A DNA stretch of 64,000 nucleotides from an uncultured Clostridia bacterium (GTDB lineage: Bacteria > Bacillota > Clostridia > Oscillospirales > Oscillospiraceae), in NCBI GenBank assembly GCA_947649615.1, contig CANSSG010000009.1, positions 1 through 64,000 on the forward strand, read 5' to 3'. A program made the translations under genes and the position numbers. The notes below the pieces were generated by a model. That model was not told where the DNA came from. It saw only the letters and a program-made list of their open reading frames with translations, and did no database searches. Shown here piece by piece: positions 1 through 26,123 of the stretch. How positions within the stretch are numbered: position 1 is the stretch's first letter; each line of letters starts with the position of its first letter.

Positions 1-1430
1 GGGCCCTGGCGGAGAAGATCGCCGGGGAGAAGCGGGTGGCCTACGGCATCACCACCGGCTTTGGCGACTTCGCCACGGTGGCCGTGTCGGACGAGCTGTC
101 CAGCCAGCTGTCCACCAACCTGATTCTCAGCCACTGCACCGGCACCGGCGAGCCCTACAGCCGGGAGCAGGTGCGGGGCATGATGGCCCTGCGGGCCAAC
201 GCGCTGTGCGTAGGCCTGAGCGGTGTGCGGCCGGTGCTGGTGGAGATGCTGGTGGACATGCTCAACCGGGACGTGACTCCGGTGATCCCCCAGAAGGGGT
301 CCCTGGGGGCCTCCGGGGATCTGGCGCCCCTGTCCCACATGGGGCTGGTGCTGCTGGGCAGGGGGGAGGCCTTCTACGGCGGGGAGCGCCTGCCGGGCCG
401 GGAGGCCATGGAGCGGGCCGGCATCGCCGTGCTGGACACCCTGGTGTGCAAGGAGGGCCTGGGCGTCACCAACGGCACCTGCGCCATGACCAGCGTGGGG
501 GCCCTGCACCTCTATGACACCCTCCAGGCCGCCCGCCTGGCGGATCTGATCAGTTCCCTGACCCTCACCGCCCTCACCGGCCAGCTGGACGCCTACCAGG
601 AGCGGATGCACACCGCCCGGGGACAGGTGGGCCAGATCCAGGTGGCGAGGAACATGCGCCTGCTCACCGAGGGCTGCGAAATTCTGGAGCGCTGCCAGGG
701 GGACCGGGTTCAGGACGCCTACGCCCTGCGGTGCATCCCCCAGGTCCACGGCGCGGTCCGGGACGCCCTGGAGTACATCAAGAGCCGGGTGGACATCGAG
801 CTCAACGCCGTCACCGACAACCCCCTGCTCTTCTGCGAGGACGAGGCGGTCATCTCCGGCGGCAACTTCCACGGCGAGCCCATGGCCCTGCCCTTTGACT
901 TTCTGGGCATCGCCTGCGCGGAGCTGGCCAGCATCTCCGAGCGACGGATTGAGCGCATGGTCAACGCCTCCCTCTCCAACGGCCTGACCCGCTTCCTCAC
1001 CACCGAGGGGGGCGTGAACAGCGGCTTCATGATCGTCCAGTACACGGCGGCCTCCATGGCCTCGGAGAACAAGGTTCTGGCCCATCCGGCCTGCGTGGAC
1101 TCCATCCCCTCCTCGGCCAACCAGGAGGACTTTGTGTCCATGGGCACCACCGCCGCCCGGAAGGCGGGGACCATCCTGGAGAACACCCGGTCCGTGCTGG
1201 CCTATGAGCTGCTCACCGCCTGCCAGGCCATTGACATCCGCCGCCAGATCGGCCGCTGGGGCACAGGCCTGTCCCCGGCGGGGGAGGCGGTGTTCCGCCG
1301 CGTGCGGGAGAAGGTGGACTTCATGGAGGTGGACCGGGAGCTCTGGCCGGACATCCAGGCCGTGGAGGCCATGGTCCGCAGCGGGGAGCTGCTGGACATT
1401 GTCCAGGAGATCGCGCCGGAGTTCGAATAA
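1..1430 (+). CDS. hutH: Histidine ammonia-lyase, 5' end outside the window
   Basis: First enzyme of histidine degradation; it removes ammonia from histidine to give urocanate in the cytoplasm. The reading frame is open from base 3, so the gene starts upstream of the window; the GTG at 36 lies inside the conserved core (AYGITTGFG) and is not the real start. The Ala-Ser-Gly triplet that cyclises into the MIO prosthetic group is encoded at 309-317 within GASGDLAPL. About 475 residues are visible against roughly 505 for the family, so some 30 are missing. The remaining hut genes follow on the same strand, which supports HutH over phenylalanine ammonia-lyase. Confidence 0.96.
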   Translation, partial: ALAEKIAGEKRVAYGITTGFGDFATVAVSDELSSQLSTNLILSHCTGTGEPYSREQVRGMMALRANALCVGLSGVRPVLVEMLVDMLNRDVTPVIPQKGSLGASGDLAPLSHMGLVLLGRGEAFYGGERLPGREAMERAGIAVLDTLVCKEGLGVTNGTCAMTSVGALHLYDTLQAARLADLISSLTLTALTGQLDAYQERMHTARGQVGQIQVARNMRLLTEGCEILERCQGDRVQDAYALRCIPQVHGAVRDALEYIKSRVDIELNAVTDNPLLFCEDEAVISGGNFHGEPMALPFDFLGIACAELASISERRIERMVNASLSNGLTRFLTTEGGVNSGFMIVQYTAASMASENKVLAHPACVDSIPSSANQEDFVSMGTTAARKAGTILENTRSVLAYELLTACQAIDIRRQIGRWGTGLSPAGEAVFRRVREKVDFMEVDRELWPDIQAVEAMVRSGELLDIVQEIAPEFE

Positions 1431-1440
1431 ATAAGTAATC

Positions 1441-1468
1441 ATTCTTTTCTTTTATAAAAGAAAAGAAT
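1441..1468. repeat. 28-bp perfect palindrome after hutH
   Basis: ATTCTTTTCTTTTA is followed directly by its reverse complement, then by TCAAAAGAAAATTTT. It sits 10 bases after the hutH stop and may fold as a weak terminator or processing hairpin. The layout (A/T palindrome, then TCAAAA-GAA-TTTT) resembles the 37-bp repeat core at 1529, 42122 and 53999, so it looks like a diverged member of the same family. Confidence 0.6.
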
Positions 1469-1528
1469 CAAAAGAAAATTTTAGATGTGCTTGTTTGGAC
1501 TGCCGGCAGCCCCCAAATATCCTTTTGA

Positions 1529-1565
1529 AGTTCTTTTTGATACTTTTTCTTTCAAGAAAAAGTAT
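1529..1565 (-). repeat. Dispersed palindromic repeat, copy 1
   Basis: Read on the minus strand, this is a 12-bp-arm palindrome built on ACTTTTTCTT/AAGAAAAAGT followed by ATCAAAAAGAACT. The 37 bases are identical to 42122-42158 and differ at one base from 53999-54035, both in the opposite orientation. It lies in the hutH-hutU gap, 29 bases before the hutU start codon and just ahead of its ribosome site. Confidence 0.85.
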
Positions 1566-1593
1566 GTTTACAAAAAACAAGGAGGTCTTTCCT

Positions 1594-3618
1594 ATGGAAT
1601 ACAATCCCAGCGCCGCCATGACCATCCGGCTGGACGACGAGCTGCCCGCCTATCCGGCCTTTGTCCCCGGCTGCCGCCGGGCCCCCCGCCGGGAGGCCCA
1701 CCTCACCGAGGCGGACAAGGCTCTGGCCATCCGCAACGCCCTGCGCTATATCCCGCCCCAGCACCACGCCCAGATGGCCAGGGAGTTCGCCCAGGAGCTC
1801 CGGGAGCACGGCCGCATCTACGGCTACCGCTTCCGGCCCGAGGGGCGGCTCTGCGGCAAGAGCATTGACGAGTACAAGGGCCAGTGCGTGGAGGCCCGGG
1901 CCTTCCAGGTGATGATCGACAACAACCTGGACTTTGACGTGGCCCTCTACCCCTACGAGCTGGTGACCTACGGCGAGACCGGCCAGGTGTGCCAGAACTG
2001 GATGCAGTACCGGCTCATTAAAAAGTACCTGGAAATCATGACCGATGAGCAAACCCTGGTGGTCATGTCCGGCCATCCCCTGGGCCTGTTCCGCTCCCAC
2101 AAGCTGGCCCCCCGGTGCATCATCACCAATGGCCTGATGGTGGGCGGCTTTGACGACCAGAAGAACTTCAACCGCGCCGCCGCCTTAGGCGTAGCCAACT
2201 ACGGCCAGATGACCGCCGGCGGCTGGATGTATATCGGACCCCAGGGCATCGTCCACGGCACCTTCAACACCCTGCTCAACGCGGGCCGGCTGAAGCTGGG
2301 CATTCCCGCCGACGGCAACCTGGCGGGGAGACTGTTCGTATCCGCCGGCCTGGGCGGCATGAGCGGCGCCCAGGGCAAGGCGGCGGAGATCGCCGGGGCG
2401 GTGTCCATCATCGCGGAGGTGGACGACTCCCGCATTGAAACCCGCTTTACCCAGGGCTGGGTCAGCGAGCGCACGGAATCCCTGGAAGAAGCCCTCTCCA
2501 TTGCCCGGACGCACCTGGCGGACAAGACCCCCTGCGCCATCGCCTACCACGGCAATGTGGTAGACCTGCTGGAATACTTGTATGACAACAACGTCCATGT
2601 GGACCTGCTCAGCGACCAGACCTCCTGCCATGTCCCTTACGACGGCGGCTACTGCCCCCAGGGCCTCACCTTCGCCCAGCGCACGGATATGCTGGACAAA
2701 GACCCGGCGGGCTTCCGCACCCTGGTGGACAAGTCCCTGCGGCGGCACTATGAGATGATCTGCAAGCTTCACGGCCGGGGAACCTATTTCTTCGACTACG
2801 GCAACAGCTTCCTCAAGGCGGTCTTTGACGCCGGCGTGAAGGCGGTATGCCGGAACGGGGAGAACGACCTGGACGGCTTTGTGTTCCCTTCCTATGTGGA
2901 GGACATCCTGGGACCCTGCCTGTTTGACTTCGGATACGGTCCCTTCCGCTGGTGCTGCCTGTCCCGGGACAGCGGGGATTTGGACAAGACCGACGCGGCG
3001 GCGGCGGAATACATCCTGGCCAACAACCGCCGCTATCAGGACTATGACAACTACGTCTGGGTGCGGGACGCCAAGAAAAACAAGCTGGTCGTAGGTACCC
3101 AGTGCCGCATTCTGTATCAGGACGCCATGGGCCGCATGAACCTGGCGCTGAAATTCAACGAAATGGTGCGGAACGGGGAAATTGGCCCGGTGATGCTGGG
3201 CCGCGACCACCATGACACCGGCGGCACCGACTCCCCCTTCCGGGAGACCAGCAACATCAAGGACGGTTCCAACATTATGGCGGATATGGCGGTGCAGTGC
3301 TACGCGGGCAACGCGGCCCGGGGCATGAGCCTCATCGCCCTCCACAACGGCGGCGGCACCGGCATCGGCCGCGCGGTGAACGGCGGCTTCGGCATGGTGC
3401 TGGACGGCTCCGAGCGTGTGGATGCGGTTTTGCGGATGTCCATGCCCTGGGACGTCATGGTGGGCGTCTCCCGCCGGGCCTGGGCCTGCAATGAGAACGC
3501 CCTCACCACCGCCGCCGAGTATAACCGGATGCGGGAGGGCAGCGACCACATCACCCTGCCCTACACGGCGGACGGCGCGCTGGTGGAAGCCGCCCTGCGG
3601 GAAGCGGGGGAGGCATAA
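1594..3618 (+). CDS. hutU: Urocanate hydratase, long form
   Basis: Converts urocanate to imidazolonepropionate using tightly bound NAD+. The chosen ATG at 1594 has GGAGG at 1581-1585; the frame is open further upstream (to 1495), but that stretch runs through a repeat element and is not family-like. The product has 674 residues. Most bacterial urocanases have about 555, so this is the longer type also known from animals and some gut anaerobes. The dinucleotide-binding loop is visible as SAGLGGMSGAQ. The stop TAA shares its last A with the ATG of hutI, so translation is probably coupled. Confidence 0.95.
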   Translation: MEYNPSAAMTIRLDDELPAYPAFVPGCRRAPRREAHLTEADKALAIRNALRYIPPQHHAQMAREFAQELREHGRIYGYRFRPEGRLCGKSIDEYKGQCVEARAFQVMIDNNLDFDVALYPYELVTYGETGQVCQNWMQYRLIKKYLEIMTDEQTLVVMSGHPLGLFRSHKLAPRCIITNGLMVGGFDDQKNFNRAAALGVANYGQMTAGGWMYIGPQGIVHGTFNTLLNAGRLKLGIPADGNLAGRLFVSAGLGGMSGAQGKAAEIAGAVSIIAEVDDSRIETRFTQGWVSERTESLEEALSIARTHLADKTPCAIAYHGNVVDLLEYLYDNNVHVDLLSDQTSCHVPYDGGYCPQGLTFAQRTDMLDKDPAGFRTLVDKSLRRHYEMICKLHGRGTYFFDYGNSFLKAVFDAGVKAVCRNGENDLDGFVFPSYVEDILGPCLFDFGYGPFRWCCLSRDSGDLDKTDAAAAEYILANNRRYQDYDNYVWVRDAKKNKLVVGTQCRILYQDAMGRMNLALKFNEMVRNGEIGPVMLGRDHHDTGGTDSPFRETSNIKDGSNIMADMAVQCYAGNAARGMSLIALHNGGGTGIGRAVNGGFGMVLDGSERVDAVLRMSMPWDVMVGVSRRAWACNENALTTAAEYNRMREGSDHITLPYTADGALVEAALREAGEA

Positions 3619-4853
3619 TGGACCGGCTTCTGGTAAAAAACATCGGCGTCCTTGCCACCCCCGAGGGCCGCGGCGCCAAGGGCGGCAAGGCCCAGGGCGA
3701 CATCCGCACCCTCCGGAACGCCTGGGTGCGGATTGAGGGCGGCCTCATCACCGGCCTTGGCGCCGGCGAGCCGGAGGGGACGGAAAACGCCCGCATCCTG
3801 GACGCCGGCGGCCGGTTGGCGACGCCGGGGCTGGTGGACGCCCACACCCACCTGGTTTTCGGCGGCTGGCGGCAGAACGAGCTGGCCCTGAAGCTGCAGG
3901 GGACGCCATACCTGGACATCCTGGCCCAGGGCGGCGGCATCCTGTCCACCGTCCGCGCCACCCGGGCCGCGTCCGGGAAGGAGCTGGAGGACAAAGCCCG
4001 CCTCGCGCTGGATGAAATGCTGGCTTTCGGCACCACTACCTGCGAGGCGAAAAGCGGCTACGGCCTGGACAAGGAGACGGAGCTGCGCCAGCTCCGGGCC
4101 ATCCGGGCCTTGGACGGCAGCCATCCCATAGACCTGGTACCCACCTTCCTGGGCGCACACGCCCTGCCGGAGGAGTACAAAAACGACCGCCAGGGATACA
4201 TCCGCCTGCTGTGCGGGGACATAATCCCCGCCGTCGCGGCGGAGGGGCTGGCGTCCTTCTGCGACGTATTCTGCGAGACCGGCGTATTCACAGCGGAGGA
4301 ATCCCGCACCATTCTGGAAGCGGGAAAGGCCCACGGCCTCCTCCCGAAAATTCATGCCGACGAGATCGACCCCATTGGCGGCTCCCGTTTAGCGGGGGAG
4401 ATAGGCGCCGTATCGGCGGAGCATCTGATTGTCTGCCCGCCGGAGGGCATTGCCGCCATGGCGGCTGGCGGAACGGCCGCCTGCCTGCTGCCGGCCACCA
4501 GCTTCTATTTAGGCGCGGCCTACGCCCCCGCCCGGGAGATGGTGTCCGCCGGGGTGCCGGTGGCCCTGGCAACGGATTTCAACCCCGGTTCCTGCCCCTG
4601 CCTGAACATGCAGCTTGTCATGAGCCTTGGCTGCCTGAAATACCGCCTGACCCCGGAAGAGGTCCTCAGCGCCGTAACCCTCAACGCCGCCGCCGCCATC
4701 GGGCGCGCGGAGTCCGTTGGCTCCTTAGAGCCTGGAAAGCTGGGGGATCTGGTGATCTGGGACGGGCCGGATTTAAATTACATCTGCTACCGTCTGGGCA
4801 GCAACCTGGCTCATACGGTGATCAAAAAGGGCGTTCCCTATGGGAAGGAGTAA
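3618..4853 (+). CDS. hutI: Imidazolonepropionase
   Basis: Third hut enzyme, an amidohydrolase that opens the imidazolone ring to give N-formimino-L-glutamate. Its 411 residues match the family length. Metal and substrate motifs are visible: DAHTHLVFGG near residue 75, HADEIDP in the middle and ATDFNPGSCP towards the C-terminus. The start overlaps the hutU stop (TAATG), and GGGGGAGG precedes it. The next gene begins 6 bases after the stop, so all hut genes appear to form one operon. Confidence 0.96.
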   Translation: MDRLLVKNIGVLATPEGRGAKGGKAQGDIRTLRNAWVRIEGGLITGLGAGEPEGTENARILDAGGRLATPGLVDAHTHLVFGGWRQNELALKLQGTPYLDILAQGGGILSTVRATRAASGKELEDKARLALDEMLAFGTTTCEAKSGYGLDKETELRQLRAIRALDGSHPIDLVPTFLGAHALPEEYKNDRQGYIRLLCGDIIPAVAAEGLASFCDVFCETGVFTAEESRTILEAGKAHGLLPKIHADEIDPIGGSRLAGEIGAVSAEHLIVCPPEGIAAMAAGGTAACLLPATSFYLGAAYAPAREMVSAGVPVALATDFNPGSCPCLNMQLVMSLGCLKYRLTPEEVLSAVTLNAAAAIGRAESVGSLEPGKLGDLVIWDGPDLNYICYRLGSNLAHTVIKKGVPYGKE

Positions 4854-4859
4854 AGAAAT

Positions 4860-5771
4860 ATGTCAAAATTAGTTGAGTGCATCCCCAATTTCAGCGTCAG
4901 CAAGGAGCGCGACCCCGCAGTATTCCAGGGCTTGGTGGACACCGCCAACAGCGTCCCCGGCTGCACGGTGCTGGATGTCCAGACCGACGGCGACCACAAC
5001 CGCTGCGTGTTCACCATGGTGGGCAGCCCGGCGGCAGTAGAAGAAGTGTCCTTCCAACTGGCGAAAAAGGCGGCGGAGACCATCGACATGACCCGCCACA
5101 CCGGCCAGCATCCCCGGATGGGGTCCACGGACGTGATCCCCTTCGTCCCCACCATGGACATGACGGTAGAGGAGTGCGTGGCGCTGAGCCGCCGGGTGGC
5201 GGAGCGCATCTGGAAGGAACTGGGCATCCCCTCCTTCCTCTATGAGGACTCCGCCGCCACGCCGGAGCGCCGGAACCTGGCCGCCTGCCGCAAGGGGCAG
5301 TTTGAGGGTATGCCTGAAAAACTGCTCCAGCCGGAGTGGGCGCCGGACTACGGCGAACGGAAGATCCATCCCACGGCGGGCATCACCGCCATCGGGGCCA
5401 GAATGCCGCTGATTGCCTACAACATCAACCTGGACACCTCCGACCTGGAAATCGCCAACAAAATCGCCCGAGCCATCCGCGCCGCCAACGGCGGGTTCAA
5501 GTACTGCAAGGCCATCGGCGTGATGCTGGAGGAACGGAACATAGCCCAGGTGTCCATGAACCTGGTCAACTACGAAGGCACCCCCATTTATTACGTCTTT
5601 GAGATGGTACGCGCCCTGGCGGACCGCTACGGCGTACGCATCACCGGCAGCGAGCTGGTGGGCCTGACCCCCGGCAAGGCGATGCTGGACTGCGCGGAAT
5701 ACTACTTGAAGCTGGAGGGCTTTGACGCCCGCAAGCAGGTGATGGAATACCACCTCATCGGCATGGAATAA
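4860..5771 (+). CDS. ftcD: Glutamate formimidoyltransferase
   Basis: Transfers the formimino group of formiminoglutamate to tetrahydrofolate, releasing glutamate. At 303 residues it corresponds to the transferase half only of the bifunctional animal FTCD. It starts with the typical KLVECIPNFS and contains the GHNR-like DGDHNRCVFT and the HPRMGSTDVIPF segment. It sits between hutI and the cyclodeaminase gene that supplies the second FTCD half. Together they turn the formimino carbon into a one-carbon folate unit plus ammonia. Confidence 0.95.
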   Translation: MSKLVECIPNFSVSKERDPAVFQGLVDTANSVPGCTVLDVQTDGDHNRCVFTMVGSPAAVEEVSFQLAKKAAETIDMTRHTGQHPRMGSTDVIPFVPTMDMTVEECVALSRRVAERIWKELGIPSFLYEDSAATPERRNLAACRKGQFEGMPEKLLQPEWAPDYGERKIHPTAGITAIGARMPLIAYNINLDTSDLEIANKIARAIRAANGGFKYCKAIGVMLEERNIAQVSMNLVNYEGTPIYYVFEMVRALADRYGVRITGSELVGLTPGKAMLDCAEYYLKLEGFDARKQVMEYHLIGME

Positions 5772-5784
5772 GGAGGAACCTGAT

Positions 5785-6423
5785 ATGGAAATGAAACTGG
5801 CGGAAATGCGGGTGGACCAATTTTCCGAGGCCCTGGCCTCTGACGCCCCCGCGCCGGGCGGCGGCTCTGCCGCCGCGCTGGAAGCCGCCCTGGGGGCGGG
5901 GCTGGTGGCGATGGTGTGCCGCCTGACCCAGGAAAAGGCCCAGTTTGCCCGCTACCGGGCGGAGCTTCTGGCGGTCCAGACGCGGGCGGAAGCCCTGCGC
6001 TGCGCCCTGCTGGATGTGATGGACCGGGACACGGAGGCCTTTTTGCAGGTAAGCCGGGCCTTCCCCATGCCAAAGAGCACCGAGGAGGAAAAAGCCGCCC
6101 GCTCCGCCGCGATCCAGAAGGGCTTGGAGCTGTGTACCCAGACGCCGCTGGAGATCATGAAGCTGGCGGCGGAAGCCCTGGACCTGGCCGCGTCCCTGCT
6201 GGGCCGGTTTAATGAGAACGCCGCCAGCGACCTGGGCGTAGCGGCCCTCTCCCTCCAAGCGGGCCTGCGGGGCGCGTGGCTGAACGTGTGCATCAACATC
6301 GGCAGTCTCCGCGACAAGGCCCTGGCCCAGCGCTGCCGCGAGGAGGGCGAAGCCTTACTGCATCACGCGCTCCCCCTGGCGGAGCGGATTACCGGAGAAG
6401 TCGGGCAGGTAATACAGGGATAA
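5785..6423 (+). CDS. fchA: Formimidoyl-THF cyclodeaminase / methenyl-THF cyclohydrolase family
   Basis: A 212-residue all-helical protein of the FTCD_C family with the diagnostic APGGGSAAALEAALGAGLV near the N-terminus. It would release ammonia from 5-formimino-THF to give 5,10-methenyl-THF, completing the hut route. AAGGAGG lies 8 bases before the ATG and 14 bases separate it from ftcD. Homologues are sometimes named methenyl-THF cyclohydrolase; the hut context favours the cyclodeaminase role here. Confidence 0.9.
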   Translation: MEMKLAEMRVDQFSEALASDAPAPGGGSAAALEAALGAGLVAMVCRLTQEKAQFARYRAELLAVQTRAEALRCALLDVMDRDTEAFLQVSRAFPMPKSTEEEKAARSAAIQKGLELCTQTPLEIMKLAAEALDLAASLLGRFNENAASDLGVAALSLQAGLRGAWLNVCINIGSLRDKALAQRCREEGEALLHHALPLAERITGEVGQVIQG

Positions 6424-6528: not shown

Positions 6529-7800
6529 TTAAAACATCTCAATATAAGCGTCCCGCTCCGCGCCCACGGAGACATACTTAATGGGGCAGCGGACCGCCTT
6601 TTCCAGGTACTCGATATACGCCAGCGCCTCCTGGGGCAGATCCTCCTTTTTCCGGCACATGGACACATCCCCGAAGCCGGGGAAGTACTCGTAAACGGGC
6701 TTCGCCCGCTCCAGCCGTCCGCCGGTAGGGAAGTCCTCCACCCGCTCTCCGTCCACCTCATAGGCCACGCACACCGGCACCTTCTCCATCCCGGAGAGTG
6801 CGTCCAGCTTTGTCAGCGCAAGCTCTGTCGCGCCCTGCATCATCACGCCGTACCGGCTGGCCACCACGTCGAAGCCGCCTACCCGGCGGGGGCGGCCCGT
6901 CGCCGCGCCGTACTCCCCGCCGGCTTCCCGGAGGGCGTGGGCTTCCTCGCCGAAGAATTCGCAGGTAAACGGCCCTTCGCCCACGCAGCTTGCGTAGGCC
7001 TTCATGATCCCGATGGAGCCGTCCAGCTTATGCCCGGGAATCCCCGCGCCCACAGGCGCGTAAGCTGCAATGGAGGAAGAACTGGACGTATAGGGGAAAA
7101 TACCGAAGTCAATGTCCCGCAGCGCCCCTAGCTGGGCCTCGAAGAGCACATCCTTCCCCTCCGCGATGGCGCCGTTGAGGTACAAGGTGGTATCGCAGAT
7201 AAAATCCTTCCAGGGCAGGCCGTAGGCCCGCAGCCAGTCCATCATTTCCTCCACCTGGACCGGCGCGTGTCCGTAGCCCTTTTCCACCGTCAGGTTTTTC
7301 CACTCCACGATATCCGCCAGATGCTCCCGATGGGTCTCCAGGTCCAGCAAATCCCCCATGCGCAGGGTTTTCTTCATATATTTATCCGCATAAACGGGAG
7401 CGATGCCCCGGCGGGTGGAGCCAAACTTTTTCCCCGCCAGCCGGTCCTCCTCCAGGCCGTCCAGCAGCTTGTGGTACGGCATGCAGATGGTGGCCTTGTC
7501 GCTGATTTTAAGATTGTCCGGCGTCACCTCAATGCCGCCCTCCCGGAGCCTTTGGACCTCGCCGCACAGGTGCTCCACATCCACCACCATGCCAGGGCCA
7601 AGCACATTCACCGTACCCTGGCGGAGGATGCCCGAGGGCATTAAGTTCAAAATAAATTTACCCCGGTCGTTCACCACTGTATGGCCGGCGTTATTGCCGC
7701 CCTGGTAGCGGACCACCACATGATAGCGCTCACTGAGCAGGTCCACCATCCGGCCCTTGCCCTCGTCGCCCCAGTTGATGCCCACGATTGCTGTCAGCAT
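6529..7800 (-). CDS. purA: Adenylosuccinate synthetase
   Basis: Joins IMP and aspartate with GTP in the first committed step to AMP. The N-terminal GDEGKGR phosphate loop and the NNAGHTV segment are typical, and the 423-residue length fits. I start it at the ATG at 7800 because GGGGGA lies at 7808-7813; the TTG at 7815 would use that ribosome site as coding sequence. It is a single gene, convergent with the hut operon, with its own strong promoter and a leader hairpin. Confidence 0.96.
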   Translation of the reverse strand: MLTAIVGINWGDEGKGRMVDLLSERYHVVVRYQGGNNAGHTVVNDRGKFILNLMPSGILRQGTVNVLGPGMVVDVEHLCGEVQRLREGGIEVTPDNLKISDKATICMPYHKLLDGLEEDRLAGKKFGSTRRGIAPVYADKYMKKTLRMGDLLDLETHREHLADIVEWKNLTVEKGYGHAPVQVEEMMDWLRAYGLPWKDFICDTTLYLNGAIAEGKDVLFEAQLGALRDIDFGIFPYTSSSSSIAAYAPVGAGIPGHKLDGSIGIMKAYASCVGEGPFTCEFFGEEAHALREAGGEYGAATGRPRRVGGFDVVASRYGVMMQGATELALTKLDALSGMEKVPVCVAYEVDGERVEDFPTGGRLERAKPVYEYFPGFGDVSMCRKKEDLPQEALAYIEYLEKAVRCPIKYVSVGAERDAYIEMF

Positions 7801-7831
7801 TTGTTCGTCCCCCAAATATCATTCGAATGCA

Positions 7832-7854
7832 AGTGTGCGGTTTTTTTGCACACT
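7832..7854 (-). promoter_or_regulatory. Leader hairpin of purA
   Basis: AGTGTGC and GCACACT form a 7-bp stem around a 9-base loop, starting at about +1 of the predicted transcript. A perfect 10-bp palindrome CATTCGAATG follows at 7820-7829, between hairpin and ribosome site. The first may protect the 5' end; the second could be a repressor site. Neither role can be proved from sequence. Confidence 0.5.
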
Positions 7855-7861
7855 ACAGGGT

Positions 7862-7890
7862 AGTATAACACATACGAAGGGGGATGACAA
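7862..7890 (-). promoter_or_regulatory. purA promoter
   Basis: TTGTCA (7885-7890), a 17-base spacer and TATACT (7862-7867) with an upstream TG giving an extended -10. The predicted start is near 7855. Confidence 0.8.
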
Positions 7891-8005
7891 TGCCGTTTTT
7901 GTGAACCATCTGGAAATTTCAGGCAAGAATCCACCAAAAGGACGCGCCACAAAGACAAATGTTTTGTCTATGCAGACAAAATTGAGCAAACACGGGAAAA
8001 AACCA

Positions 8006-8035
8006 TTGACGGAGGGAAAAAGATTGTGTTACGAT
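8006..8035 (+). promoter_or_regulatory. Probable gdhA promoter
   Basis: TTGACG (8006-8011), an 18-base spacer and TACGAT (8030-8035), giving a leader of about 60 bases before the gdhA ATG. Between this and the purA promoter (7891-8005) I see nothing else definable. Confidence 0.6.
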
Positions 8036-8096
8036 TTAATTCATTAAAGCAACCAGTGAGGACGTTTCCTTCCTCTGGAATATCGTTTGGAGGTAA

Positions 8097-9449
<1,353 letters not shown>

Positions 9450-19713: not shown

Positions 19714-19743
19714 TTGACACGCCCCTGCCGGCCGTGCTACAAT
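19714..19743 (+). promoter_or_regulatory. Promoter of the T-box/LeuA-like operon
   Basis: Perfect TTGACA (19714-19719), an 18-base spacer and TACAAT (19738-19743). Transcription would start near 19750 and run through the T-box leader. Confidence 0.78.
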
Positions 19744-19749
19744 GCCACA

Positions 19750-20040
19750 TAATCTAGTTTTATAAATGCGTAGAAGGCGTAATGCCGTTTCGCGGACGCT
19801 CACAGAGAACCGGCGGTTGGTGCGAGCCGGGGGGCGGCGGGACGGCGGCTGGCGCCGGAGCAGGGCGGCCCAAAGAGGGGATTCTTTAGTAGGCCGCCAC
19901 GGGTTTGCCGCCGTTATCCGGGCAGGGGCTTGCTGGAGCCTTGCAAAGTGTGCGCAGCATGCGCAAAGCCGGGTGGTACCGCGGTAATGAACCATTATCG
20001 TCCCGGGGGCAGAGAACCTGTCCCCGGGATTTTTATATTT
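19750..20040 (+). promoter_or_regulatory. T-box leader, probable leucine specifier (CUG)
   Basis: The antiterminator T-box sequence TGGTACCGCG is at 19974-19983, and a terminator with a 12-bp stem, TCCCGGGGGCAG against CTGTCCCCGGGA, followed by TTTTTAT, is at 20001-20035. The stem I apical part is recognisable at 19803-19830 (CAGAGAACCGG, GGTTGGTGCGAGCCGG). I can pair GCCGTTTCGC (19784-19793) with GCGGGACGGC (19837-19846) and GGCG (19776-19779) with CGCC (19853-19856). This leaves a loop GGCTGG whose CUG at 19849-19851 is in the specifier position. Uncharged tRNA-Leu would then permit read-through. The T-box is certain; the specifier is inferred from a hand fold. Confidence 0.9.
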
Positions 20041-20081
20041 TCGGGACAGGAAGAAAAACAGGAAAAGGAGAACACAGCCCT

Positions 20082-21494
20082 ATGAAAACCATTGAAATTT
20101 CCGATGTAACCCTGCGCTTGGGGGAGGGAAGCCGCGCGTCCGCCCTAAGCTTCAAGGAGCGGGTGGAGATCGCCCGGACCCTGGACCGCCTGGGGGTCGA
20201 CCAAATCGAACTGCCCGCCCTCAGGGGCGGGCGCGGGGACGCCCTAAACAGCAAGACGATTGCCACCGCCGTGGTTTCCGCCCGGCTGTCCGCCTGCGCG
20301 GGCCTGTCGGAGGAGGAGGCAGAGGCCGCCTGGGAGAGCGTCAAAACGGCCCGCCGCCCCGGCCTGCATGTCATGCTCCCGGCGTCCCCGGTGCAGATGG
20401 AGTATATATGCCACAAGAAGGCCCCGGCCATATTGGAGCTGGCAAAAGCACTGGTAGCGAAGGCCCGCTATTTCACGGAGCACGTAGAATTTTCCGCCCT
20501 GGACGCCACCCGGGCGGAGCCGGAATTTTTGCGCCAGCTTCTCACGGCGGCAGCGGAAGCGGGTGCGGAAACGGTAACGCTGTGCGATTCTGCGGGCATC
20601 ATGACGCCGGAGGAGTGCAGGAAGTTCATATCCGGGACCGTCTCCCAGACCCCCGCCCTGGGGAAGGTCCGCCTGGGCGTCGAGTTAAGCGACGGCCTGA
20701 AGATGGCCGCAGCCTGCGCGGCAGCGGCCATGGACGCGGGCGCATCCCTCATCAAGGCCTCCATCACCCCCCTGGACCGCCCCTCCACCTCAGACCTGTC
20801 GGCCTATCTCACAGCCCGCGGGGAGGGGAAGGGCATACGCTGGAACCTGCGCAGCACGGAGTTGGCCCGGGCAGCGGGGCAGGTTCAGTGGATGATGCAG
20901 ACCCAGCGCAGCGGCGGCTCACCCTTTGACAGCGGGGTAGAGGACACGGGGACGGCGGCGTGCCTCACCGCCGGGGACGGCATTGAGGAGATGGTCAGGG
21001 CCGTGCGCCATTTAGGCTACGATTTAACGGAGGAAGACAACGCCAAGGTATACGAGGCATTCCAGCGCATTGCGGCGAAAAAGCATTTTGTCAGCACCCG
21101 GGAGCTGGACGCCATAGTGGCCTCCTCGGCCATGCAGGTCCCCTCTGTATACCGGATTATCAGCTACGTCATTACCTGCGGGAACATGACGGCGGCGATG
21201 GCCAATTTAACCTTGGAAAAGGATGGGGAAAAGCGGCAGGGCGTGTGCGCCGGCGACGGCCCGGTGGACGCGGCGTTCCTCGCCATAGAGCAGATCATAG
21301 GCCATCATTACGAACTGGCGGACTATCAGATACAGACGGTGACGGAGGGCCGCGAGGCGATGGGCTCGGCCCTGGTGAAGCTTCGCTCCAACGGGAAGCT
21401 GTATTCCGGCAACGGCATATCCACCGACGTAATAGGGGCCAGCATCCGCGCCTACATCAGCGCGCTGAATAAAATCCTATTTGAAGAAAATTGA
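20082..21494 (+). CDS. LeuA-family protein with LeuA regulatory domain but without catalytic residues
   Basis: A 470-residue relative of 2-isopropylmalate synthase. Residues 4-330 follow the DRE-TIM barrel and residues 365-465 follow the LeuA allosteric dimerisation domain (YQIQTVTEGREAMGSALVKL, then GNGISTDVIGASIRAY). Several signature residues are missing: TLRDGEQ is TLRLGEG, so the metal-binding Asp is Leu13; the catalytic Glu of FSxED is Leu140 (FSALDA); the metal-binding HxHND is V-E-L-S-D at 200-204. The frame is intact and codon use is normal. It should not be able to condense acetyl-CoA by the known mechanism. It may sense leucine or be an altered enzyme. AAGGAG precedes the ATG, and the T-box places it under leucine control. 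Confidence 0.82.
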   Translation: MKTIEISDVTLRLGEGSRASALSFKERVEIARTLDRLGVDQIELPALRGGRGDALNSKTIATAVVSARLSACAGLSEEEAEAAWESVKTARRPGLHVMLPASPVQMEYICHKKAPAILELAKALVAKARYFTEHVEFSALDATRAEPEFLRQLLTAAAEAGAETVTLCDSAGIMTPEECRKFISGTVSQTPALGKVRLGVELSDGLKMAAACAAAAMDAGASLIKASITPLDRPSTSDLSAYLTARGEGKGIRWNLRSTELARAAGQVQWMMQTQRSGGSPFDSGVEDTGTAACLTAGDGIEEMVRAVRHLGYDLTEEDNAKVYEAFQRIAAKKHFVSTRELDAIVASSAMQVPSVYRIISYVITCGNMTAAMANLTLEKDGEKRQGVCAGDGPVDAAFLAIEQIIGHHYELADYQIQTVTEGREAMGSALVKLRSNGKLYSGNGISTDVIGASIRAYISALNKILFEEN

Positions 21495-21609
21495 CGCCCC
21501 GCCTAACGCTGCGCTTCCGGCGGCCCCGCAGGGCCGCGCGGGCTTCGTGCGCCTGCGGAGCCGCCGCGGGCGGGCGTATCAAAAAACAAGCCGCAGGCTT
21601 ACGCGCGTT

Positions 21610-21632
21610 TTTGCCGCATAGGGTGCGGCAAA
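21610..21632 (+). promoter_or_regulatory. Intergenic hairpin ahead of the fusion gene
   Basis: TTTGCCGCA and TGCGGCAAA pair over a 5-base loop, immediately before the weak ribosome site (AAGAGG) of the next gene. There is no U-run, so it is more likely an RNA-processing or translational element than a terminator. The 156-base gap otherwise holds GC-rich sequence without a frame. Confidence 0.4.
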
Positions 21633-21650
21633 GAAGAAAGAGGTATAAGA

Positions 21651-24116
21651 ATGAAGCTTTCTTTTTCGATGAAATATTGGAGCCAATTGGACTGGCCGCT
21701 GGCCTGCCAGGCGGCGGCCGCCGCCAAGCTCCACGGCGTGGAGCTTGACAGCGTCAGGAACCCCGCCCTGACGGTGCGGAACAGCCCCACGAATCCGGAG
21801 CTTGCCCTGCCGGCCCGCCGCCAGTTGGCGGCAATGGATTTAACCATCCCCTGCATAGGCACGGCAGCGGACCTGACCGCCCCGGACGCAGCGGATGAGA
21901 TTACCGCCGCCGCCGTGGCGGCGGGAAACCTCCTGTCGCCCTACGTCGCGGTGCATACCGCCTGCGGGGATGAAGAGAGGATCATAGCCTGCCTGAAGCC
22001 GCTGCTCCCCCTGGCGGAAAAAAACAAGACGGTCCTCCTGCTGGAGAGCGGCGGCGCGCTGGCGGACACGAAAAAACTGGTATCGGTGCTGGACCACTTT
22101 GCCTGCGACCACCTGGCCGCCTGCTGGAACGTCCATAACACCTGCCTGATGCAGAAGGAGTCCCCCGAAGAAACCATCACCAACCTGGGCGCCTATGTCC
22201 GCTACGTCCGTCTCACCGACGGCGGGGTCCTTGGCGCCCCGGATCTGGTAGGGGAGGGCGCCCTTCCCCTGCGGGAGCTGATGAACGCCCTGCGCAGCGT
22301 AAACTACGACGGCTTCATCTCTCTTTTATGGAACCCAGCCTGGATCGAGGGCCTGGACGACCCTGAAATGATCCTGACCCACTTCTCGGTCTGCCTGTCC
22401 CAATTCGAGCGCGAGGACCGGAAAAGCCATCTCTACTACAACGCCGCCGGGACCGGCCAATACGTCTGGAAAAAGGACATTGTCATTGACAGCACCTTTC
22501 CCCAGGTCTTGGACAGAATGGTGGAGGAGTTTCCCGGCCAATACGCTTTCAAATACACGACCTTGGACTACACCCGGACCTACAGCCAATTCCGGGATGA
22601 CGTAGACCAATTCGCCCGCTCCCTGATTGCCCTGGGCGTCAAGCAGGGGGACAAGGTCGCCGTATGGGCTACCAACGTCCCGGCGTGGTTCATCACCTTC
22701 TGGGCGGCAACGAAGATTGGGGCTGTGCTGGTAACGGTAAACACGGCCTACAAGATTCACGAAGCGGAGTATCTCCTGCGCCAGTCCGACACGCATACGC
22801 TGGTCATGATAGAAAGCTACCGGGACAGCAACTACGCGGAGATTATAGCCGAGCTATGCCCCGAGCTGCAAACGGCCCGGCCGGGGGAGCCGCTGCACTG
22901 TAAAAAGCTCCCCTTCCTGCGCAACGTAATCACAGTCGGCTACCGGCAGGCCGGGTGCCTGACCTGGGAGGAAGCGGCGGCATTAGCGGGAAAAACCTCG
23001 CCGCAGGAGGTCCGCCGCCGCGCCGCCGCCGTCCGCCCCCACGACGTAGCCAACATGCAGTATACCTCCGGCACCACCGGCTTCCCCAAGGGGGTGATGC
23101 TGACCCATTACAACGTCGTCAACAACGGGAAATATATCGGCGACCACATGGATTTGTCCACCGCCGACCGCATGATGATCCAGGTGCCTATGTTCCACTG
23201 CTTCGGCATGGTGCTGTCCATGACGGCCGCCATGACCCACGGGTCCGTCATGTGTCCCCTGCCCTATTTCTCCCCGAAGCCGGCCCTGGCCTGCATCAAC
23301 CAGGAGCGCATCACCACCTTCAACGGCGTCCCCACCATGTTCATCGCCATGATGAACCACCCGGACTTCGCCACGACGGACTTTTCCTGCATCCGCACCG
23401 GCATTATGGCAGGCGCCAACTGCCCCCCGGACCTGATGCGGAAGGCGGCGGACGTCATGAACATGAAGCAGATTATATCGGTCTTCGGCCAGACGGAGGC
23501 CTCCCCCGGCTGTACCATGAGCAGCTTCGACGACCCCCTGGACGTGCGCACGGAAACGGTAGGAAGCCGTTTTGCCAACGTAGAATGCAGGATTATCGAC
23601 CCGGATACCGGCGAGGAATGCCCCATAGGCGTCAGCGGCGAATTTGTCGCCCGGGGCTACAACGTCATGAAGGGCTACTACAAGATGCCGGGGGCCACCG
23701 CCGCCGCCATCGACAGCGAAGGCTGGCTCCATTCCGGGGACCTGTGCTGCGAAGATGAAAACGGTAATTTCCGCGTAACGGGGCGGCTGAAGGACATGAT
23801 CATTCGGGGCGGCGAAAACATATATCCCCGGGAAATCGAAGAATTCCTCTACACCTGCCCCAAGGTAAAGGACGTACAGGTCATCGGCGTCCCTGACGAG
23901 CAGTACGGCGAGGAAATCATGGCCTGCATCATCCTCAAGGAAGGCGAAACCGCCACGGCGGAGGAGATCAAGTCCTTCGTCCTCTCCCACATGGCAAAGC
24001 ACAAGGTACCCCGTTATATTGAATTTGTAGACGCCTTTCCCATGAACGCGGCAGGAAAGGTGCTGAAATATAAAATGCGTGAAAACGCGGCAGAAAAGCT
24101 GGGCTTAAAAAAGTAG
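21651..24116 (+). CDS. Fusion of a TIM-barrel sugar-isomerase-like domain and an acyl-CoA synthetase
   Basis: An 821-residue two-domain protein. Residues 1 to about 260 look like the xylose-isomerase-like/AP-endonuclease-2 TIM barrel (SMKYWSQLDWPLACQAAAAA, LLLESGG, CWNVHNT, GEGALPLRELMNAL, NYDGFISLLWNP). In that family the metal ligands usually read WDxHH and SLEWEP, so several appear lost. Residues 270-821 are a complete adenylate-forming acyl-CoA ligase: P-loop YTSGTTGFPKGVML, FGQTEASPG, HSGDL, GRLKDMIIRGGENIYPREIE and the C-terminal lysine in AAGKVLKYKMRE. It should activate a carboxylic acid as CoA thioester; the acid is unknown. One continuous frame without an internal start favours a true fusion. 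It follows the LeuA-like gene under the same T-box. Confidence 0.87.
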   Translation: MKLSFSMKYWSQLDWPLACQAAAAAKLHGVELDSVRNPALTVRNSPTNPELALPARRQLAAMDLTIPCIGTAADLTAPDAADEITAAAVAAGNLLSPYVAVHTACGDEERIIACLKPLLPLAEKNKTVLLLESGGALADTKKLVSVLDHFACDHLAACWNVHNTCLMQKESPEETITNLGAYVRYVRLTDGGVLGAPDLVGEGALPLRELMNALRSVNYDGFISLLWNPAWIEGLDDPEMILTHFSVCLSQFEREDRKSHLYYNAAGTGQYVWKKDIVIDSTFPQVLDRMVEEFPGQYAFKYTTLDYTRTYSQFRDDVDQFARSLIALGVKQGDKVAVWATNVPAWFITFWAATKIGAVLVTVNTAYKIHEAEYLLRQSDTHTLVMIESYRDSNYAEIIAELCPELQTARPGEPLHCKKLPFLRNVITVGYRQAGCLTWEEAAALAGKTSPQEVRRRAAAVRPHDVANMQYTSGTTGFPKGVMLTHYNVVNNGKYIGDHMDLSTADRMMIQVPMFHCFGMVLSMTAAMTHGSVMCPLPYFSPKPALACINQERITTFNGVPTMFIAMMNHPDFATTDFSCIRTGIMAGANCPPDLMRKAADVMNMKQIISVFGQTEASPGCTMSSFDDPLDVRTETVGSRFANVECRIIDPDTGEECPIGVSGEFVARGYNVMKGYYKMPGATAAAIDSEGWLHSGDLCCEDENGNFRVTGRLKDMIIRGGENIYPREIEEFLYTCPKVKDVQVIGVPDEQYGEEIMACIILKEGETATAEEIKSFVLSHMAKHKVPRYIEFVDAFPMNAAGKVLKYKMRENAAEKLGLKK

Positions 24117-24189
24117 GACCCGGCTGCATAAATCTCTCTCCGCCGGGAAACAATGGAAGCATCCCACAAAGAAGAGAGGAGCGACGCCC

Positions 24190-24456
24190 ATGGTAAAAGG
24201 CACATCCCGCCGCGTAATCGTAGTAGACTCCCCCGATCCGAAGCTGTTCGAACAAGCCATATTCATTGTCAAAAACGACGCATTCTCCCAGGAGGGCGTC
24301 ACCTCCCAGCAGGTATTAGGCGAGGCCTGCCGCATTGCACGAAGCTGCGCGGCCCCCCAGACCATCCCGCCGCCCATCTGGCGCAGGGTCCCCCTCTGGG
24401 GCTGGATTGCGGCGGCGGCGGCCATAGCGGCGGCGGTGATGGCGGCCGTATTATAA
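24190..24456 (+). CDS. Small protein with C-terminal membrane anchor
   Basis: 88 residues. The N-terminal part (VKGTSRRVIVVDSPDPKLFE, AIFIVKNDAFSQEGVTSQQV) is soluble and the last 20 residues (WGWIAAAAAIAAAVMAAVL) are a tail anchor. Similar short proteins occur in many Clostridia and are sometimes labelled translation initiation factor 2, for which I see no support. GAGGAG precedes the ATG. It is 73 bases after the fusion gene and before the terminators, so it could be the last gene of the T-box operon, though it may be independent. Confidence 0.7.
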   Translation: MVKGTSRRVIVVDSPDPKLFEQAIFIVKNDAFSQEGVTSQQVLGEACRIARSCAAPQTIPPPIWRRVPLWGWIAAAAAIAAAVMAAVL

Positions 24457-24588: not shown

Positions 24589-25806
24589 TCAGCCTTTCCG
24601 ATTGATTTTCACAGTCTCCTTCATCGCCACGGAGCAGGCCAGGTCCCCCAGCACGTTGCAGCAGGTCGCGCCCATATCGCAAAGGGTGTTGACGCTGATA
24701 TACACCCCCATGACCCCGGCGGGCAGCCCCGCAATCGCGGCCAGGGCGGCAAAGGAAGCGATGGCGCCTCCCGGTACGCCCGGCGTCCCGATGCTCAGCA
24801 GCGTATTGCTGAGCAGCACCACCGCCAGCAGGCCGAAGCTGATTTCCACGCCGCAGGCGTTGGCGAAGAACACGATCATAAACGACATCAGAATAGACAC
24901 CGCGTCCATATTGATGGTGGCCCCCAGCGGCAGCGCCAGGGAGGAAATCTCATTCGGCACCCCCAAGCTGCCGGCGCACTGCTTGCTGATGGGCAGCGTC
25001 GCCGAACTGGAGCAGGTTCCGAAGGCGTTGAGGGCCGCAGGCATGACCCTGGCAAAAAACGTCCGGACGCCGCATTTCCCCAACAGCCTGACGATCCCTC
25101 CATAGACCACTGCGGCATAGAGGAAGAAGGTCAGATACAGCGCCCCGAGCACGGTTCCCAGCGCCAGGATTGTTTCCGTGCCATTGGCGTACACCACGGA
25201 CGCGATAGAGCAGAACACGCCCACCGGCGTAAACAGCATGACCACGGAAACGACCTTCACCGCGATTTCATTCACAGCACAGGCCAGGTCCACAAACGGC
25301 TTTGCCTTCCCCTCCAGGGCGAGGCAGGCGGTCCCCACGATTACCGCGAACACCAGCACTTGCAGCATATCGCCATTGGCAAAGGCGGCCGCGGGGTTTG
25401 CGGGGATCAAATTCCTTACGGTGTCCAGCAGGCTGGTAAAATGGGTCGCTTCCACCCCGGCCTCCACCATTTCAACCGCCACCCCCCGGCCAAGGCCCAG
25501 GGCCTTTGGCAGGAACAGCCCCAGCAGGCTGGCCAGGAGCGTCGTAGCGGTATAATAAATCACCGCCTGCGCGCCGACGCGCCCGGTAGCGGACACGCTT
25601 CCAATCCCGTGGATGCCGGCCACCAGGGAGCAGAACACCAGCGGATAAATCATCATCCGCAGCGCGTTCATATACAGCCCGCCCACCAAGTCAATGGCGG
25701 GCAGCAAAAATGCAAGCCGCCCCGGCATAGCAAGCCCCAGGGCAATGCCTAGCAGCAGGCCGGTAAAGATGGCGAGGGTCAGGTGGGTGGATTTTTTGTT
25801 TTTCAT
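24589..25806 (-). CDS. Cation:amino-acid/dicarboxylate symporter (DAACS family)
   Basis: A 405-residue membrane transporter of the GltP/SstT type. It has several hydrophobic segments, the re-entrant-loop signature SSSATLPISKQ, the GATINMDAVS segment (GATINMDGTA in classical members) and a second loop GTPGVPGGAIA. It would import an amino acid or dicarboxylate with Na+ or H+. I start it at the ATG at 25806, preceded by AAAGGAG; the frame is open upstream, but that is the T-box leader. T-box control argues for amino-acid uptake. The altered signature residues leave the substrate open. Confidence 0.88.
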   Translation of the reverse strand: MKNKKSTHLTLAIFTGLLLGIALGLAMPGRLAFLLPAIDLVGGLYMNALRMMIYPLVFCSLVAGIHGIGSVSATGRVGAQAVIYYTATTLLASLLGLFLPKALGLGRGVAVEMVEAGVEATHFTSLLDTVRNLIPANPAAAFANGDMLQVLVFAVIVGTACLALEGKAKPFVDLACAVNEIAVKVVSVVMLFTPVGVFCSIASVVYANGTETILALGTVLGALYLTFFLYAAVVYGGIVRLLGKCGVRTFFARVMPAALNAFGTCSSSATLPISKQCAGSLGVPNEISSLALPLGATINMDAVSILMSFMIVFFANACGVEISFGLLAVVLLSNTLLSIGTPGVPGGAIASFAALAAIAGLPAGVMGVYISVNTLCDMGATCCNVLGDLACSVAMKETVKINRKG

Positions 25807-25845
25807 GGGAAGCACTCCTTTACACAAAACATACATATGGCAAAT

Positions 25846-26123
25846 AAAAAACGCCCGTCTTCTGCCAAAACAGAAGACGGGCGCAGCGCCCGTGGTACCA
25901 CTTCTATTCACCCCGGCGCAGGCGCGCCAAGGCCTCACAGGCATCCAACAATGCCCTCCGCGATAACGGGCGGACCCGTTGCGCCCTTACGGAAGCCGTT
26001 TGGGCGCACCTCTCCGGAGCCATGTTCACCTGCGGCCGGCTTATTCCCTTTCAGCAGCCGGGAACTCTCTGTAAAGCGGACGGGCAGGCTACTCTTTCCT
26101 TCATAGGGTTTCAAAAAATATGT
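25846..26123 (-). promoter_or_regulatory. T-box leader of the symporter gene
   Basis: On the minus strand: GAAGGAAAGAGTAG, then CAGAGAG and an apical stem ending AAGCCGG (stem I), the T-box sequence TGGTACCACG at 25891-25900, and a terminator with a perfect 13-bp stem (CGCCCGTCTTCTG) followed by TTTTTT at 25846-25883. In the usual GUGAA-NNN arrangement the specifier would be CAU (26022-26024), a histidine codon; a register shift would read ACA or AUG. The T-box identity is firm, the amino acid is not. Confidence 0.88.

Follow-up and report, generated by a model that had tools for sequence, protein, structure and literature searches.

The window analyzed here, a stretch of 64,000 nucleotides from an uncultured Clostridia bacterium (contig CANSSG010000009.1), contains at positions 19714 to 24456 an operon in which a leucine-type T-box leader precedes a gene for a LeuA-like protein whose sequence lacks the LeuA active site (referred to below as dead LeuA) and a gene for a fusion of a TIM barrel with an acyl-CoA ligase. 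On the basis of comparative sequence analysis we propose, with good confidence, that this operon provides the entry enzyme of an isovalerate-based leucine pathway and regulates it, that its switch is the charging of tRNA-Leu, and that dead LeuA is a probable leucine sensor. According to this proposal, a shortage of leucine would cause uncharged tRNA-Leu to stabilize the antiterminator, so that both genes are transcribed, and the AMP-forming ligase would convert isovalerate, its presumed substrate, into isovaleryl-CoA. The reductive carboxylation of isovaleryl-CoA to 2-oxoisocaproate with reduced ferredoxin would be carried out by the 2-ketoisovalerate ferredoxin oxidoreductase (VOR) VorABC, encoded in an isoleucine T-box operon of the same genome, or, in many relatives, by a PFOR-type enzyme; a branched-chain aminotransferase would then convert 2-oxoisocaproate into leucine. 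Finally, dead LeuA would sense leucine and slow down the ligase or its complex, a brake, so to speak, that has outlasted the engine. The enzyme steps of this route rest on gene content, and the direction of flux through them is one that we infer.

The operon and its leader

An initial annotation of this region, made from the sequence alone, had described a promoter, a leucine T-box with its terminator, a LeuA-like gene, a fusion gene and a small open reading frame (ORF), all on a single strand. The arrangement from the promoter to the fusion gene was confirmed, and the small ORF is indeed located on the same strand:

19714-19743, + strand: sigma-70-type promoter, TTGACA-18-TACAAT
19762-20008, + strand: T-box leader (RF00230) with specifier CUG (Leu) and T-box sequence UGGU
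20000-20030, + strand: terminator hairpin with a 13-pair stem followed by a T-run, overlapping the antiterminator
20082-21494, + strand: LeuA-like pseudoenzyme composed of an HMGL-like TIM barrel lacking the metal ligands and a conserved LeuA_dimer regulatory domain
21651-24116, + strand: xylose-isomerase-like TIM barrel (residues 1-276) fused to an AMP-forming acyl-CoA ligase, proposed to be an isovaleryl-CoA ligase
24190-24456, + strand: ORF of 88 amino acids without a family match, probably outside the system

The promoter matches 11 of the 12 consensus bases, and shuffled versions of the region contain a mean of 0.1 such sites. The RF00230 match spans the full length of the model (1-219) and has a score of 90.2 bits (E 4.3e-20), which is just below the gathering score of 93. 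The antiterminator-terminator stretch of 79 nt folds with a z of -3.5, only one of 200 shuffles being equally good, and the 43-nt antiterminator taken alone is ordinary compared with its shuffles (z -0.4). The upstream neighbor of the operon is an RNase Y gene in the opposite orientation.

The specifier codon was read by the rule that the triplet is followed by one base and then by the lower strand of stem I. Applied to the window leader, this rule gives CUG, with G as the next base. The genome to which the window belongs contains 11 T-boxes in all, and with the Rfam alignments the same rule reads GUC, UAC, GGC, GCC, UUC and ACC ahead of genes for ValS, TyrS, GlyS, AlaS, PheS and ThrS, respectively, and UGG ahead of a TrpB-like gene, all of these genes being named by eye. 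As a separate observation, the TrpB-like gene at positions 7114-8487 (- strand) of locus L250, again named by eye, has a Trp-type T-box upstream with a UGG specifier and the T-box sequence UGGC.

Conservation of the gene pair and of its leucine specifier

Relatives of dead LeuA were taken as the best 80 of 229 from one scan. In 79 of these 80 loci, dead LeuA has the fusion gene downstream, in the same orientation and no more than about 0.7 kb away; in the remaining one (L116), the contig ends after another 117 bases. Co-occurrence of the two genes in other genomes, which the initial annotation had left to be checked, is thus the rule, and the pair lies mostly behind a T-box motif, which was found in 63 of the 77 genome-contig loci having at least 180 bases of upstream DNA. 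The same adjacency was found in a panel of 99 genomes drawn from the genus, family and order to which the window belongs, of which 31 carry dead LeuA (carriers) and 68 do not (non-carriers): the two genes are adjacent in 29 of the 31 carriers, in another (G052) the contig ends, and in the last one (G032) dead LeuA comes after VorABC and the aminotransferase, with the fusion on a separate contig. Labels pointing to ruminants (RUG, which we take to mean rumen genomes, RGIG and Reindeer) occur in at least 53 of the 80 record titles. In the Lachnospiraceae, dead LeuA is present in 3 of 98 relatives of the genome of L079, whose record is named Lachnospiraceae bacterium FE2018, and those three show no further LeuA match. 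Judged by this distribution, dead LeuA and the fusion are an old unit.

There are 76 distinct leaders before dead-LeuA genes. The 70 that were parsed by script all specify leucine, with CUC in 49 and CUG in 21; five of the six leaders beyond the script read CUC by eye, the sixth (L070) being outside the reading. A leucine codon in two synonymous forms is to be expected under selection for tRNA-Leu, and the assignment of the window T-box to the leucine type therefore agrees with the leaders of its relatives.

The LeuA-like protein has lost its active site and kept its regulatory domain

The metal ligands of LeuA are the aspartate of the RDG motif and both histidines of the HxH motif. Ordinary LeuA, for example the leucine-bound enzyme of Mycobacterium tuberculosis (3fig), has the RDG aspartate, the HxH motif and a segment carrying a further invariant histidine, and proteins of the window type are without them. 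In the window protein, RDG is changed to RLG and HxH to ExS (ELS). Among 88 aligned rows, the two HxH histidines are retained in one and three rows, respectively; the residue after the R/K of the RDG-equivalent motif, which could be located in 79 of the rows, is never aspartate; and the segment with the invariant histidine is absent from all 88. In addition, the protein scores under every LeuA equivalog cut-off, the best score being 299.3 bits compared with a cut-off of 532. The claim of the initial annotation that this protein has no active site therefore stands.

The regulatory part of the protein is well preserved. It matches LeuA_dimer (PF08502), the domain by which LeuA binds leucine, with 106.9 bits, compared with a Pfam gathering score of 24.9, and the LeuA positions G391, G423, G428, G445 and N463-K464 (window numbering) are kept in all 88 rows. 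Dead LeuA is therefore a putative, and in our view probable, leucine feedback sensor; if so, it would illustrate clearly how a regulatory domain can survive its enzyme. On the other hand, dead LeuA may have acquired a new catalytic or structural job, for instance as a scaffold that channels isovaleryl-CoA, its leucine binding being a relic. The many residues of the barrel that are invariant across 23 aligned homologues, including D8, E43, D141, R144, D169 and K225, would fit such a job, and so would the position of dead LeuA directly before the ligase gene in 79 of the 80 loci. However, the regulatory positions have been retained as well, and we regard a new job as possible but doubtful.

The fusion enzyme and the small ORF

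Pfam confirmed the composition that the initial annotation had given to the fusion enzyme: AP_endonuc_2 (PF01261) matches residues 20-227 with 43.3 bits (gathering score 31.1), and is followed by AMP-binding (308.7 bits) and AMP-binding_C (69 bits). The core motif YTSGTTGFPKG, at residues 471-481, is invariant in 21 aligned rows. A sequence search of the PDB with the barrel gave a single match, with an E value of 0.078. Barrels of this family have a conserved metal-binding set of Glu, Asp, His and Glu; conserved residues were listed for the barrel of the fusion as well, at the level of sequence. Isovalerate is the proposed substrate of the ligase.

The ORF of 88 amino acids had been described as a small anchored protein belonging to the system. 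This part of the initial annotation did not hold up: although the ORF exists, domain searches assigned it to no family, and no homologue was found in the loci of relatives, its sole exact match being its own locus (L002). The ORF was therefore rejected as a third member of the operon, and it is probably not part of the system. By eye, hairpins are found soon 3' of the ligase gene in several close relatives.

Carriers of the operon mostly lack the classical leucine branch

At a cut-off of 353 bits, leuB was found in one of the 31 carriers of the panel and in 46 of the 68 non-carriers (p 4e-10 with genomes treated as independent, a Fisher value that is too small because the genomes are related and many are incomplete, and that should be taken as a guide only). 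The difference was found both within the window's genus (0/17 carriers vs 3/8 non-carriers) and outside it (1/14 vs 43/60), as well as in the 63 genomes that are at least 90% complete and at most 5% contaminated (1/18 vs 33/45).

In the window's own genome, which is 95.8% complete, there is no LeuA match other than the dead one and no leuB above the cut-off. Its one aconitase gene neighbors what was recognized by eye as an isocitrate dehydrogenase gene. By contrast with leuB, ilvB, ilvN, ilvC and ilvD are all above their cut-offs, behind a T-box with the specifier GUC (valine). Because ilvBNCD are present and there is neither another LeuA nor a leuB over the cut-off, and only one aconitase, the leucine-specific branch in particular appears to be gone, and the organism of the window thus seems to have lost classical leucine biosynthesis.

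The remaining enzymes of the proposed route

The enzymes that would act after the ligase are encoded in a second T-box operon of the same genome:

L239 5069-14666 (contig C24), - strand: Ile T-box operon, with the specifier AUC read from the Rfam alignment and by a strict parser

On one strand, this operon comprises the Ile T-box, a cupin-ligase gene, a gene for a P-loop protein that has no family match, two small ORFs, and genes for a ferredoxin, for VorB and two further VOR subunits (beta and gamma), for a nitrilase-like protein and for a branched-chain aminotransferase. VorB scores 544.7 bits (cut-off 399) and the aminotransferase 455.9 bits (cut-off 307), and an acid ligase, a 2-oxoacid:ferredoxin oxidoreductase and a branched-chain aminotransferase are therefore all present in this genome. 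A helix-turn-helix (HTH) domain was matched by Pfam in the cupin-ligase copies of the relative G036, and none was matched in the own copy at E 1e-5. Near this operon, at L239 17155-17238 (+ strand), we also observed a match to the twister-sister ribozyme (37.6 bits; gathering score 34).

Two observations connect these enzymes to the dead-LeuA operon in other genomes. Firstly, VorB is above its cut-off in 29 of the 31 carriers, compared with 34 of the 68 other genomes, and genes for VorB, beta, gamma and the aminotransferase adjoin the operon itself in three relatives. In G036 (locus L163), a single strand carries a Leu T-box with dead LeuA and the TIM-ligase, an Ile T-box with a cupin-ligase and a Val T-box with another cupin-ligase, continued by the nitrilase-like gene, the aminotransferase gene and, after a gap of about 0.9 kb, VorB, beta and gamma. 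The three ligases follow the same order in G081, where the Ile and Val codons were read and the leader before dead LeuA was found by the covariance model. Secondly, a PFOR-type gene is located within 3 kb downstream of the ligase gene in 31 of the 45 loci having at least 1.5 kb of DNA there, and 25 of these 31 bear ruminant labels. The operon-linked PFORs are 72-89% identical to that of locus L091, and the latter shares 55-59% identity with full-length PFORs from relatives of the window's genome; the window's own genome has PFOR fragments at contig ends only. An Amidohydro_2 gene (L091 4410-5240) is found between the ligase and PFOR genes in 21 of those 45 loci.

The indolepyruvate enzyme IOR was considered as the partner oxidoreductase. 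On contig C8 of the own genome (L161 5616-9652), an AMP-forming ligase gene lies next to IorA and IorB, and this cluster likely serves a similar kind of pathway for aryl acids. However, none of the genome's T-boxes is near this cluster and IOR is named for indolepyruvate, and it was set aside as the partner; as a second route it is possible.

The initial annotation had suggested the reductive carboxylation of isovalerate to leucine, and this suggestion is supported by the scarcity of leuB in carriers, the adjacency of VOR and aminotransferase genes in three relatives, the PFOR-type gene in 31 of 45 loci and the sister ligases under Ile and Val T-boxes described below. The same evidence bears on two other explanations. 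In the first, the organism is unable to make its own leucine, and the function of the operon is the uptake or salvage of leucine-derived compounds such as 2-oxoisocaproate or peptides, the ligase acting on another acid. Most carriers being without leuB over the cut-off would suit an auxotroph, as would the presence next door of a Met-reading T-box before a symporter gene. Yet no transporter gene lies within the operon, and ligase, VOR and aminotransferase make up a complete biosynthetic set, joined by a PFOR-type gene in so many loci; we consider auxotrophy very improbable. In the second, the route would run in the reverse direction, breaking leucine down to isovalerate with a gain of ATP. VOR, PFOR and the ligases can work in both directions, and leucine is a substrate of fermentation in many gut Clostridia. 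On the other hand, a T-box turns genes on when an amino acid is short, which is the wrong response for catabolism, AMP-forming ligases normally use up ATP, and leuB is scarce in carriers. Of all the explanations that we weighed, breakdown of leucine has the lowest probability.

Sister ligases and the T-box code

The cupin-ligases were typed by whether their N-terminal domain matches the own copy (Ile-type) or the second copy of G036 (Val-type) better, with a margin of more than 40 bits. There are 30 Ile-type genes, and all 29 readable leaders specify AUC, the other leader being cut by the start of the contig. Of 21 Val-type genes, 20 have a T-box motif, reading GUA in 15 and GUC in two, with three that differ. 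One of these three, that of G047, is cut by the contig start and was misparsed by the script; GUC can be read by eye. Another 17 cupin-ligase genes remain unclassified (AUC in ten, one unparsed, six without a motif). A clear Val-type ligase is present in 19 genomes, none of which has ilvC, as compared with ilvC in 46 of the 80 other genomes; it follows that the Val-type ligase occurs in genomes that lack the valine branch.

It was expected that the catalytic cores of the ligases would also split into Ile and Val types. This was not the case: in the AMP-binding tree, which contains a single outgroup branch of great length, the two types are intermixed and do not form two clean clades. A separation of Ile from Val is seen in the N-terminal types and in the leaders. 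In two loci, Val-type cupin-ligase genes (L163 9921-12212 and L162 13334-15637) are located directly after Ile-type genes. We can only guess that the mixed cores result from gene conversion between tandem copies.

A further explanation is that the ligase activates isovalerate, or mixed branched acids, for the branched-chain fatty acids of the membrane, the Leu T-box reporting a shortage of precursors. A precedent would be MbcS, an ATP-dependent ligase that, according to its abstract, feeds 2-methylbutyrate and isobutyrate into fatty acids (PMC10026030). However, several findings point to amino acids: three ligase kinds are paired with T-boxes for three amino acids, the operon adjoins VOR and aminotransferase genes in relatives, leuB is scarce in carriers and ilvC is absent where there is a Val-type ligase. 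A role in fatty-acid synthesis is, in our judgment, very improbable.

Returning to amino-acid synthesis, these results may be extended to a general scheme, to which we give about an even chance. In this scheme, gut and rumen Clostridia would possess a modular set of T-box-addressed CoA ligases for branched acids, namely dead LeuA plus the TIM-ligase for leucine (isovalerate) and the cupin-ligases for isoleucine and valine (2-methylbutyrate and isobutyrate), which all deliver their products to the same VOR and aminotransferase. One lost classical branch would be replaced by each ligase, and dead LeuA would have found a new use in the replacement route, as its leucine feedback subunit. The ligase genes are candidates for the acid-activating step of each branched acid, and the product in question could be read from the T-box codon. 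If the scheme is true, growth requirements and the cross-feeding of branched acids could be read from genomes, and calls of "leucine auxotroph" for uncultured gut Clostridia would change.

Several observations weigh against our proposal or parts of it. With respect to the loss of the leucine branch, G031 is the sole carrier of the 31 that keeps leuB, and the carriers G014, G071 and G075 have intermediate leuB scores (244-262 bits vs 353). Moreover, among the 41 carrier genomes reached from genome-contig loci (41 of 80 loci), leuB is over the cut-off in five, another scores 351.2 bits and several score 185-267 bits. As an observation in its own right, G031 has, in addition to the dead-LeuA operon, an ordinary LeuA together with leuB and ilvC, and hence naturally combines both pathways in one genome. 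With respect to the T-box code, the Val-type ligase of G035 has CUC (Leu), and starts a contig that also bears VorB and dead LeuA on the same strand; the weakly Val-type ligase of G090 has AUC (Ile); and nine carriers are without both ilvC and a clear Val-type ligase. Because the core tree mixes the types, the code follows the N-terminal domain and not the catalytic core. With respect to the leader, no T-box motif was found in 14 of the 77 genome-contig loci, four of which have at most 331 bases upstream. This motif count is too low, since a covariance scan recovered a T-box in the motif-negative L039 (outside the 77); the scan found none in six other motif-negative loci (dead LeuA in L033, L080, L092 and L129; cupin-ligase in L281 and L302), and some relatives of the operon may therefore truly be without a T-box. 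With respect to the enzymes, the window operon itself contains neither VOR nor aminotransferase genes, both being elsewhere in the genome. The nearest NCBIfam model of the fusion, PRK12583, is below its cut-off and does not have isovalerate in its name. Finally, the predicted structure of the fusion is confident over the barrel and poor over the ligase (mean pLDDT 64.6), and because the ligase is poorly modeled, the PDB matches of this model add little to the Pfam result.

Other features of the window

A second T-box of the window (25870-26113, - strand, 105.2 bits), whose specifier appears to be AUG (methionine), is located before a gene of the sodium:dicarboxylate symporter family (24589-25944, - strand), which suggests methionine-responsive control of an unusual transporter family. 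Positions 36-6423 (+ strand) contain an apparent histidine-degradation operon, with genes recognized by eye only as encoding HutH, urocanate hydratase, imidazolonepropionase and a formiminotransferase.

Comparison with known systems

T-box control of leucine genes occurs in Firmicutes, where leaders with CUN specifiers precede leuABCD or leuS. The window leader belongs to the same riboswitch class and also has a CUN specifier, but controls the activation of an acid instead. The carboxylation of isovalerate to leucine in rumen bacteria was reportedly detected by isotope incorporation (Allison et al., 1962, 1966). The reactions proposed here are the same, and the ruminant labels on at least 53 of the 80 loci are in line with that pathway; it was defined by isotopes, whereas the window system is known here from genes, a T-box code and a dead LeuA. 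According to one publication, rumen bacteria convert isovalerate into leucine, 2-methylbutyrate into isoleucine and isobutyrate into valine, and branched-chain volatile acids have been recognized since the 1960s as growth factors for rumen bacteria that make branched-chain amino acids from them (PMC7356843). Passages of two others consider the conversion of 2-methylbutyrate into isoleucine probable in a rumen methanogen (PMC2812497), and say that methanogens use branched acids for isoleucine and leucine (PMC10658910). MbcS of Staphylococcus aureus is likewise an ATP-dependent ligase for branched short-chain acyl-CoA; according to its abstract, however, it is poor on isovalerate and feeds fatty acids, and the abstract mentions neither a T-box nor a TIM barrel (PMC10026030).

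In the open-licence literature, a scope that leaves preprints and most subscription papers outside, we found no description of a T-box-addressed gene set with a reused dead LeuA. Precedents exist for the pathway and for each of its components, namely riboswitch class, ligase family, VOR and aminotransferase, and what appears to be new is the set at the level of genes, with its T-box addressing and its dead LeuA. For the latter, a likeness is found in histidine biosynthesis. In the HisZ-HisG ATP phosphoribosyltransferase, according to the abstract of PMC9734150, amino-acid feedback is carried by a regulatory protein that imposes it on the enzyme, which is what we propose for dead LeuA. The difference is that HisZ descended from an aminoacyl-tRNA synthetase, and that in the window system the relic would come from the very pathway that was lost.

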